A DNA stretch of 64,000 nt from contig JAPLCF010000029.1 of assembly GCA_026392355.1 (NCBI GenBank), positions 124,001 through 188,000 on the forward strand. Direction: 5' to 3'. The first letter of the stretch is position 1. Each line of letters starts with the position of its first letter. The translations under genes were made by a program, and so were the position numbers. Below the pieces are notes generated by a model. That model was not told the origin of the DNA. It saw only the letters and a list, made by a program, of their open reading frames with translations, and did no database searches. Source of the stretch: Actinomycetota bacterium. GTDB taxonomy: Bacteria > Actinomycetota > Thermoleophilia > Gaiellales > F1-60-MAGs149. Below are positions 8,915 to 59,127 of this stretch, piece by piece.

Positions 8915-9193
8915 ATGGTCACTGCATTCGTCCTGATCGACGTCGAGCGCGGCCGCCTCGCTGAGGTCGCCGACCGTCTCGCCACCACCGATGGCGTCGC
9001 CGAGGTCCACTCGGTCGCCGGCCGCTACGACCTCGTCGCAATCGTGCGCGTCTCGAGCAATGAGGCGATGGCCGACCTCGTTACGAGCGGCCTGCTGGCG
9101 ATCGACGGCATCGTCCGCACCGAGACGCTGCCCGCTTTCCGCGCGTACTCGCGCCACGATCTCGACGCCATGTTCGAGATCGGCGACGTCTGA
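8915..9193 (+). CDS. stand-alone Lrp/AsnC ligand-binding (RAM) domain protein
   Basis: 92 aa, MVTAFVLIDVERGRLAEVADRLATTDGVAEVHSVAGRYDLVAIVRV...; no HTH segment. Confidence 0.85.
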   Translation: MVTAFVLIDVERGRLAEVADRLATTDGVAEVHSVAGRYDLVAIVRVSSNEAMADLVTSGLLAIDGIVRTETLPAFRAYSRHDLDAMFEIGDV

Positions 9194-9200
9194 AGCACCA

Positions 9201-9340
9201 ATCTGGACCCGGGTCCAGATCTGCATGCTTCGCGCGAATCTGGACCCGGGTCCAGACGGGTAGCATCAGCGCCATGGCGGACAGATTGGATCCGGATCCA
9301 AATTGTCCCGCAGAGGGACAAAATGGATCCGGATCCAAAC
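9201..9340. repeat. cluster of four palindromes with consensus YTGGAYCCGGRTCCAR
   Basis: ATCTGGACCCGGGTCCAGAT 9201-9220; TCTGGACCCGGGTCCAGA 9239-9256; TTGGATCCGGATCCAA 9286-9301; TGGATCCGGATCCA 9324-9337. Centres are 37, 46 and 37 bp apart. Confidence 0.9.
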
Positions 9341-10110
9341 TGTCCAAAATCACGCGACTGGCGGCCGTCAACGGCAAGCCGGCCGTGAAGGTGCATCTCA
9401 ATGGCGCGTACTGGACGACGCTGCCGGCCTCGCTGGTCGTTGACGAGGACCTGCACCTCGGCAGCGAGGTGGACGAGGCCCGACGCACGCGCCTCGAGCA
9501 GCAGCGCGACACCGCCGCTGCCCTCAGCTATGCGATTCGGTCGCTCGACTTCCGCATGGCTTCACGTGGCCAGCTGCGCGATCGCCTCGCCCGCAAGGGG
9601 CACGACGACGCCACGATCCAACGCACGCTCGACCGCTGCGAGGAACTGGGCGCACTCAACGACCGCGTGCTCGCCGCCACGCGCGCTCGCCGCTTCCGCG
9701 ATGCGGGGCAGGCGCCGTTCTCCACGCAGCAGCGCCTGCGCAGGCAGGGCTTTGCCGACGCCGAGATCGGTGCCGCGGTCGACGAGGCCTACGCCGACTT
9801 CGACGAGGAGGCCGAGGCGCGGCGTCTGCTCGCGGCACGACCCAGCACGACCGCCAGTCGCTCGCGCGCCTACGGCTTCTTAGCGCGCCGCGGCTTTAGC
9901 CCGCAGCTGGCCGGGCGTCTCGCCTCCGAAGTTGCCGGCGAGGCCGAGAAGACCAAGCCGCCCGCCGACATGGACGAGCTCGAGCGGCAGGTGCGCCGCC
10001 GCTACCCCACGGCGGCCAGCGATGCCGGTGCTCGGCGGCGCGCCCACGCCTGGCTGATGCGCCACGGTGCCACCGCCGCGCAGATACGCGAGCTCCTGCA
10101 GGCGCGCTAG
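9274..10110 (+). CDS. recX: regulatory protein RecX
   Basis: ALSYAIRSLDFRMASRGQLRDRLARKGHDDATIQRTLDRCEELGALND...QRLRRQGFADAEIGAAVDEAY; RecX repeats. The first ~23 codons are encoded by the palindrome cluster, so the true start is uncertain. Confidence 0.85.
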   Translation: MADRLDPDPNCPAEGQNGSGSKLSKITRLAAVNGKPAVKVHLNGAYWTTLPASLVVDEDLHLGSEVDEARRTRLEQQRDTAAALSYAIRSLDFRMASRGQLRDRLARKGHDDATIQRTLDRCEELGALNDRVLAATRARRFRDAGQAPFSTQQRLRRQGFADAEIGAAVDEAYADFDEEAEARRLLAARPSTTASRSRAYGFLARRGFSPQLAGRLASEVAGEAEKTKPPADMDELERQVRRRYPTAASDAGARRRAHAWLMRHGATAAQIRELLQAR

Positions 10111-11135
10111 CCGCCGACGACGCGGCCGGCATCGACGACGGTTTCGCCGTCGAGGCGCACGGTGCAGTGGCGCATCGGGAAATCAAAGTGACCGCGGGTG
10201 AACCGGCCCGCGTTCTCGTTGGCCCCCGTCGAGAAGAGGAAGTTCCCCTCGAAGGCGCGCAGCTCGATGCCATTGGTCTCGCGCTTATCGACCATCACAA
10301 GGGCGTCCCAGCGCGCGGCGGGGTTCATGCCCCAGCCCACGTGACTCACGCTGTAGGCCTCTTCTTCGTCGAAGGCGGCGAGGTACGAGCGCAGCAGGTC
10401 GGCATCAAGATTGTGGCCATCGATATCCACCACGCGGTCGTCCTCAATCCGCAGGCGCACCGCGTCGCGGAGGTACTCCTTGAACGTCAGGTTGGCATCG
10501 CCCGGCGCGAGCACGACTGTGCCGTTGACCGACCCCGCCGCCGGAAACGCGACCACGAGACCGCCGGGCCAGTGCGCCACCGTGCCGGGGCCGTCGGTGG
10601 CCCCCCACGAGCCGGCCGTGAAGGCGCCCGTGAGCGACACGCGCAGATCCGTGCCTGCCGACGACGTGACGCGTAGTTCCGTTGCGGCACGCAAGCGTTC
10701 GAGGCCGGCCAGCACGCGCAGCTTGAGCGCGCCCTCGTCGGGTGCCCAGCGCTCGAAGGCCTCGGGATCCTCGTTGGGGATCATCAGCACGCGCGAGCCA
10801 GCACCGAGGATCGCCGGCAGTTCGGGCGCGTGCAGCAGACCCTCAACGGTGCAATCGAGCACGAGGTCGGCCGCGCAGAGTGCGGCGACGGCCGCCGGAT
10901 TGCCCTGCAATGCGATGCTCGACCCCGTCGAGCGGATTGCCACCGGCCCGGGGTTCGGCGGTGTCGGCATGCGCACGTCGACGACGCGGCCGCCAAGGTC
11001 CTCGGCGGCCAGGCGCGCCGTGTCGACGAGCGCGGTGCGACTCGCCGACTCGCTCAGCACCGCGACGACCTCGCCACTGGCCAGACCACTTGCGACCAGC
11101 GCACGGCGGAAGACATCGAGCGTGCGGTGCTCCAT
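10107..11135 (-). CDS. M29/2,5-dihydroxypyridine 5,6-dioxygenase (NicX)-like protein
   Basis: C-terminal FSTGANENAGRFTRGHFDFPMRHCTVRLDGETVVDAGRVVGG resembles M29 aminopeptidase/NicX metal-site regions. Confidence 0.6.
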   Translation of the reverse strand: MEHRTLDVFRRALVASGLASGEVVAVLSESASRTALVDTARLAAEDLGGRVVDVRMPTPPNPGPVAIRSTGSSIALQGNPAAVAALCAADLVLDCTVEGLLHAPELPAILGAGSRVLMIPNEDPEAFERWAPDEGALKLRVLAGLERLRAATELRVTSSAGTDLRVSLTGAFTAGSWGATDGPGTVAHWPGGLVVAFPAAGSVNGTVVLAPGDANLTFKEYLRDAVRLRIEDDRVVDIDGHNLDADLLRSYLAAFDEEEAYSVSHVGWGMNPAARWDALVMVDKRETNGIELRAFEGNFLFSTGANENAGRFTRGHFDFPMRHCTVRLDGETVVDAGRVVGG

Positions 11136-28576: not shown

Positions 28577-28637
28577 CACCCCGCGTCCCTCCGCGGGGTG
28601 CGATCAGGTTCCTCATGGGGTCAGACCCCGTGAGGAA
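28577..28637. repeat. double-hairpin intergenic element with GGGGTCAGACCCC core
   Basis: CACCCCGCG/CGCGGGGTG (28577-28585/28592-28600) and TTCCTCATGGGG-TCAGA-CCCCGTGAGGAA (28609-28637). Confidence 0.8.
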
Positions 28638-41445: not shown

Positions 41446-41544
41446 GATGCTCCAAAGGGGTCAGACCCTTTTGGAGCATGATCGGCGCCGTACTGCCTTC
41501 AACGGCTCGCATGCACCAAAAGGGTCTGACCCCTTTGGAGCATC
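41446..41544. repeat. inverted repeat with GGGGTCAGACCC core
   Basis: Arms 41446-41480 GATGCTCCAAAGGGGTCAGACCCTTTTGGAGCATG and 41510-41544; reverse complement with one mismatch, 29-nt spacer. Confidence 0.9.
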
Positions 41545-59035: not shown

Positions 59036-59127
59036 GGGGTTCAGGTTCGGAATGGGGTCAGACCCCAAACCGAACTTGACGATCGAGGTTCGGTTTGGGG
59101 TCTGACCCCATTCCGAACCTGAACCCC
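59036..59127. repeat. perfect 40-bp inverted repeat (hairpin) with GGGGTCAGACCCC core
   Basis: GGGGTTCAGGTTCGGAATGGGGTCAGACCCCAAACCGAAC - TTGACGATCGAG - exact reverse complement (59088-59127). Confidence 0.97.

Follow-up and report, generated by a model that had tools for sequence, protein, structure and literature searches.

Four similar palindromes stand in close succession around the start of recX in the window (the whole 64,000-nt stretch of DNA analyzed here), which raises the question of whether they form a regulatory site for the neighboring genes or belong to a repeat family that moves. The earlier note had proposed both readings. The positions and spacings that it gave for four palindromes of one consensus hold: cores start at 9204, 9241, 9287, and 9324, with centers exactly 37, 46, and 37 bp apart. 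Copies 1 and 2 read CTGGACCCGGGTCCAG (starts 9203 and 9240), copy 3 reads TTGGATCCGGATCCAA (start 9286), and copy 4 reads TGGATCCGGATCCA, with 9324–9337 as its whole match span. The cores are as described, but symmetry does not end at 16 bp: each unit spans about 30 bp. Units 1 (9196–9225; core TGGACCCGGGTCCA at 9204–9217) and 2 (9233–9262; core 9241–9254; 37 bp from unit 1) are of subtype C, and units 3 (9279–9308; GGACAGATTGGATCC/GGATCCAAATTGTCC; core 9287–9300) and 4 (9316–9345; core 9324–9337; 37 bp from unit 3) are of subtype T. Consensus units of about 30 bp, drawn from 42 T and 24 C units of the source genome, are GGACAATTTGGATCC followed by GGATCCAAATTGTCC for subtype T and TGCGAATCTGGACCC followed by GGGTCCAGATTCGCA for subtype C. 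The near-perfect inverted repeat of about 30 nt noticed over copies 3 and 4 is also real, with 31-nt arms (9279–9309 and 9315–9345) that are 90% complementary. No Rfam match to a known RNA element was found in the window.

The palindromes are dispersed across the source genome, a 2.40-Mb draft MAG (G000). It contains 61 exact cores of the form TGGAYCCGGRTCCA, versus 0.07 expected from its length and own base composition, and 79 when up to one mismatch is allowed; reversed-pattern controls gave 0 and 2, respectively. The array is thus as far from chance as had been suspected, and the count rules out a local accident. The cores group into approximately 29 places, and the contexts of all listed clusters (~7 kb each) show that nearly every site comprises two to four arrayed units, in combinations that mix the subtypes (CC, CCC, TT, CTT, TTCC, and CCTT). 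Whether pairs at 37 bp recur elsewhere in the genome, a check that the earlier note had suggested, has a clear answer: among core pairs less than 40 bp apart, 30/31 are at exactly 37 bp and the remaining one is at 38. Core searches used the exact-core pattern and so favor intact units; among congener loci retrieved through their genes, and hence not selected for spacing, 8/8 core pairs are likewise at 37 bp. Linkers within arrays are often CGTTTTC or GAAAACG. At one locus (L036, 3398–3651; G000:C9 ~303400–303650) a separate tandem repeat (GGATCCATGTCATGCAGAACGGCCC...CCTGGATGCC) lies between palindrome copies.

Symmetry within the arrays differs among species. Variation in the T units of G000 is symmetric, with 20 cells altered on both sides against 10.2 after shuffling (0/500), and arms there match best within units, whereas those of the congeners G002 and G006 match better as direct (tandem) repeats. 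A model of long hairpins only, as in classic REPINs, and a model of unit-level symmetry were both tried, and neither fits every species. Loss of within-unit symmetry is not simply a consequence of losing the transposase described below, since G006 has the gene. Outside the 30-bp unit in G000, symmetry is at chance (arm positions 16–18) and no consensus resembling a GT[AG]G foot was found.

One half of the window array is a derived insertion in a coding sequence. The palindromes had been placed between the AsnC-domain gene and recX, which holds for copies 1 and 2, but copies 3 and 4 lie inside the recX reading frame (9274–10110, plus strand; RecX_HTH1, E = 2e-12), whose ATG at 9274 is conserved with G006 and G002. 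In those two species recX starts as ATGGCGGAGATCAC(A/G)CGACT; in G000 the stretch between ATGGC and ATCACG consists of the T doublet plus AAA (9279–9348, plus strand), 70 nt in place of the 4 nt GGAG. The net gain of 66 nt after codon 2 is in frame, contains no stop, and adds approximately 22 residues, so that the predicted RecX N terminus reads MADRLDPDPNCPAEGQNGSGSKLSKITRL instead of MAEITRL, with the peptide LDPDPNCPAEGQNGSGSK predicted for the insert region. Because recX of both congeners starts without the doublet, copies 3 and 4 are best seen as derived. On comparison of these sequences, the T doublet appears to be the younger insertion, and the upstream C pair sits in a gap that is occupied in all three species examined there: the space upstream of recX also holds a CCC array in G006 and three T-like units in G002. 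G004, G007, G008, and G010 have another upstream neighbor and no array. At its other end recX overlaps by 4 bp a convergent gene (10107–11135, minus strand) for a 342-aa protein with a weak, subthreshold match to M29 aminopeptidases.

A candidate enzyme for such movement is encoded elsewhere in the genome and is itself flanked by the repeat. G000 carries a single clade-A gene for a REP-associated tyrosine transposase (RAYT; G000:C5:56641–57342; Y1/HUH type, 234 aa) with T-type pairs on both sides. Orthologues in G006 (70% identity) and G011 (64%; found by protein search after a Pfam search missed it) have the same palindromes on both flanks, with one gene per genome and the same neighborhood in all three species. 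The protein has the motifs HYH and RYIPLNPV and belongs to PF01797; its match to the NCBIfam model REP_Tyr_transpos (E = 7e-14) is below the model cut-off. In Foldseek comparisons, a low-confidence predicted fold (pLDDT 57) resembles the transposases of IS608 and ISDra2 (E ~ 1e-4) and a RAYT in complex with its REP (4er8, E = 2e-3). A C-terminal helix-turn-helix (HTH) is suggested by HTH_23 (E = 0.002, below cut-off) and by a profile match to 8vd6 (E = 6e-12, positions 189–230). No RAYT dedicated to subtype C was found in G000. A third RAYT of this genome (L125, G000:C11:102320–102973) has a different repeat at its flanks, a bipartite hairpin (CCTCGAGGTG..CGGTCC) of which several tandem copies lie upstream.

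Across the genus, the palindrome changes in step with the RAYT lineage. Clade B RAYTs carry TGGGCCCGGGCCCA palindromes, with the unit GGACATGGTGGGCCC followed by its mirror; clade C RAYTs carry ACAAACCCCGGTTTGT palindromes, with GGACATGACAAACC.. followed by its mirror; and the more distant RAYTs of the genus are flanked by palindromes around GGGGTCWGACCCC. Mapped on a tree of 16 RAYT sequences, in which clade A is weakly supported, palindrome type changes three times, the minimum, and 0/200 shuffles were as low. Nine genomes carry dispersed copies of the clade-B core (8–36 each) and G000 has none; among the places listed, these copies do not keep a fixed 37-bp spacing. Taken together, dispersal, the flanks of the RAYT gene, this co-variation, and the recX insertion favor a RAYT-linked mobile repeat of the REP/REPIN/TIR kind over an operator array. 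We therefore read the window array as two doublets of a dispersed, nonautonomous palindromic repeat maintained by a RAYT encoded elsewhere in the genome, and assign this reading a probability of roughly 85%. It agrees with the mobile family of two subtypes that the earlier note had offered.

The GGGGTCWGACCCC family is also present in the window, at 28609–28637, 41447–41479, and 59036–59127. At 59036 the palindrome forms an inverted doublet, with centers 43 bp apart, arms of ~41 paired bases, and an 8-nt loop. The genome holds 18 copies, and the five doublets listed all keep exactly 43 bp between centers; the palindrome also borders a RAYT gene (C9:608768–609292) on at least one side. The family is consistent with the GGGGWSAS-bearing repeats found at TIRYT genes.

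We next consider how the repeat is distributed among congeners. Cores are present in G002 (44), G006 (32), and G011 (31) and in none of the other 9/12. Since the genomes compared are draft MAGs of 68–94% completeness, absence of a RAYT or an array from any one of them is weak evidence. A search for the 37-bp pair across 84,980 GTDB species, with an exact-core pattern that would miss diverged families, returned only three congener MAGs, from isolates Loc081215-4m, RH-23may17, and Loclat, with contigs that match G002, G006, and G011. Judging from the isolate names, these are presumably freshwater-lake genomes. IMG/VR contained no 37-bp pair, and a phage origin was rejected on that ground. Comparison with PHROGs was uninformative. 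In G002 no clade-A RAYT was found, and the RAYT locus holds one palindrome and unrelated DNA. Either arrays outlive the RAYT gene or the gene is unassembled; the content of the shared locus makes loss seem the case, and the G002 arrays may then be relics or host-kept.

Array positions are shared far more widely than the units that fill them. Among congener array stretches, 26/32 share their gap with a G000 array, with alignable flanks of ~70–93% identity, and the units at these gaps are species-specific in subtype, outer arms, linker, and number. In G011, for example, a doublet with the same extra tail occupies 5/9 stretches. The gap upstream of gltB has TGGATCC units in G000, G006, and G002, TGGGCCC units in G004, G007, G008, and G010, and no units in G001, G003, and G012. 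Downstream of the MIP18/DUF59 gene there are two units in G000, one in G002, and none in G006, G001, and G003. Two loci that are 93% identical (L040 and L066) differ by exactly one 37-bp unit lost or gained. Identical gaps with differing units imply that positions are often old and that units are overwritten, by replacement or by concerted evolution at fixed sites. One tentative explanation is homing, in which the RAYT would prefer places where its own repeat already resides. Sites would then persist for long times, and the palindrome current in each species would overwrite their units in the 37-bp register. If true, which we regard as possible rather than likely, homing would account for the 26/32 shared gaps despite differences in subtype, arms, linker, and unit number, and for a gltB gap filled by TGGATCC in three species and by TGGGCCC in four others. 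Upstream of gltB (glutamate synthase; L150–L159, G000 contig C15), a TGAACCATTTGRTTCA-like palindrome independent of these repeats is present in 10/10 genomes examined and looks like a real operator.

The sharing of gaps also implies that new sites are rare and that the repeats could have a host function at fixed sites. G000 arrays are nearly all extragenic, in 13 convergent, 11 tandem, and 5 divergent gene gaps (n = 29; classes from a simple codon-usage gene caller, which is crude, so that a few may be wrong), and most start 0–16 bp from a stop codon. REPs elsewhere show the same preference for gene 3′ ends (PMC3733652). The host might therefore keep the palindromes, once spread by a RAYT, as bidirectional 3′-end elements (terminators or stabilizers of mRNA 3′ ends) under selection at fixed gene ends. 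Besides the abutment of most arrays on 3′ ends and the filling of the same gaps by different units in several species, the predicted structure points this way: the doublet folds as one hairpin, at −51 kcal/mol as RNA (z ~ −12), and CGTTTTC/GAAAACG linkers are frequent. However, only some gene ends are occupied, the gap downstream of the MIP18/DUF59 gene varies by species, and five arrays lie in divergent gaps. We consider this reading possible rather than likely, and it is compatible with the RAYT explanation, as both can hold.

An operator array, in which a dimeric regulator of recX and its neighbors would bind cooperatively to palindromes 3.5 helical turns apart, is suggested by the near-perfect dyads, the invariant core, the fixed 37-bp spacing, and the five arrays in divergent gaps, such as that upstream of gltB. 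Placement speaks against it: the arrays occupy ~29 unrelated loci, 13 of them convergent and most at stop codons, in place of the promoters of one regulon. Within recX itself, copies 3 and 4 represent a derived insertion, and nine congeners lack the repeat altogether. The obvious local binder is a poor candidate as well. The AsnC-domain gene (8915–9193, plus strand, ending 2 bp before unit 1) encodes a stand-alone Lrp/AsnC ligand-binding domain protein of 92 aa in which no HTH or other DNA-binding domain was found, and it was ruled out as palindrome binder. The cooperative operator that the earlier note had envisaged is thus very improbable. Nor did the analysis show the cruciform or replication-related site that the earlier note had listed as a further option. 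We give still less credence to a helix-phased site of chromosome architecture, bound by gyrase, a nucleoid protein, or a segregation factor: 37 bp is fixed and REP-type repeats are reported to bind several proteins (PMC2817692), but the repeat is linked to a RAYT and missing from most congeners, and GGGGTCWGACCCC doublets in this genome have a spacing of 43 bp, so that no helical phase is shared.

How might a RAYT-maintained repeat move? Characterized RAYTs cleave and rejoin single-stranded REP hairpins (PMC8266576), and by analogy each unit or doublet would fold to a hairpin in single-stranded DNA, where the RAYT would nick and rejoin at the hairpin foot, with single-stranded GGACAATTTGGATCCGGATCCAAATTGTCC as a possible substrate. 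The doublet could then be copied to new places or swapped with a resident one, with gene 3′ ends as the places where insertions would mostly be tolerated. Recombination or slippage between tandem units may then change the number of units per array.

This combination of dispersed copies, a flanked RAYT with HUH/Tyr motifs, and an occupied versus empty site is general to RAYT-associated palindromic repeats. The REP/REPIN–RAYT systems (REPtrons) of Pseudomonas, Stenotrophomonas, and E. coli (PMC3116915, PMC2817692, and PMC6006769) share with the present one a single Y1/HUH gene flanked by its repeat, doublets at gene ends, a RAYT orthologue at one locus, and joint change of repeat and transposase. 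In-frame intragenic REPs, adding 20–30 residues in DNA-repair genes, are also occasionally found in other bacteria (PMC3733652), and the recX insertion is a natural case of a repeat turned coding sequence in a DNA-repair regulator. Unlike canonical GTAG REPs, which have a 5′ GT[AG]G tetranucleotide foot, our units have no such foot and are even-length, nearly perfect 30-bp palindromes, of which ~70 copies keep a 37-bp register across subtypes and four species in an actinobacterial host. The comparison with REPINs, mainly inverted doublets that form one hairpin, cuts both ways: our arrays are mostly doublets, and doublets fold as one hairpin, yet the units themselves are palindromic, and the G002 and G006 arms match better as direct repeats. 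IS200/IS605 elements differ in that the transposase gene moves with its ends and has several copies in different places, whereas here one clade-A gene per genome stays at the same locus in three species. BIMEs are mosaic arrays of regularly spaced REP subtypes. The enterobacterial BIMEs (PMC2817692) share this organization with our arrays, in which, by contrast, units are nearly symmetric and a single 37-bp register dominates.

The system brings in an actinobacterial lineage whose RAYT–repeat pairing is compact and very regular, with short symmetric units and a fixed register, and whose two partners have changed jointly over several sister species. It makes testable how a RAYT recognizes perfect palindromes without a GTAG guide, and how repeats can be homogeneous within a genome yet occupy the same sites across species. 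By its features rather than by subclass profiles, the nearest known type is the TIRYT/TIRtron (PMC3733652; largely TnpAY1 subclass 2.1, PMC6006769). Both have a RAYT-like gene with a C-terminal HTH, a trait of TIRYT-like subclass 2.1 (PMC6006769), self-complementary terminal inverted repeats of non-GTAG type, and dispersed single, dimeric, and grouped copies. The clade-A palindrome departs from that type in lacking GGGGWSAS, a motif that is common though not universal among TIRYTs and that accompanies other RAYTs of the same genus.
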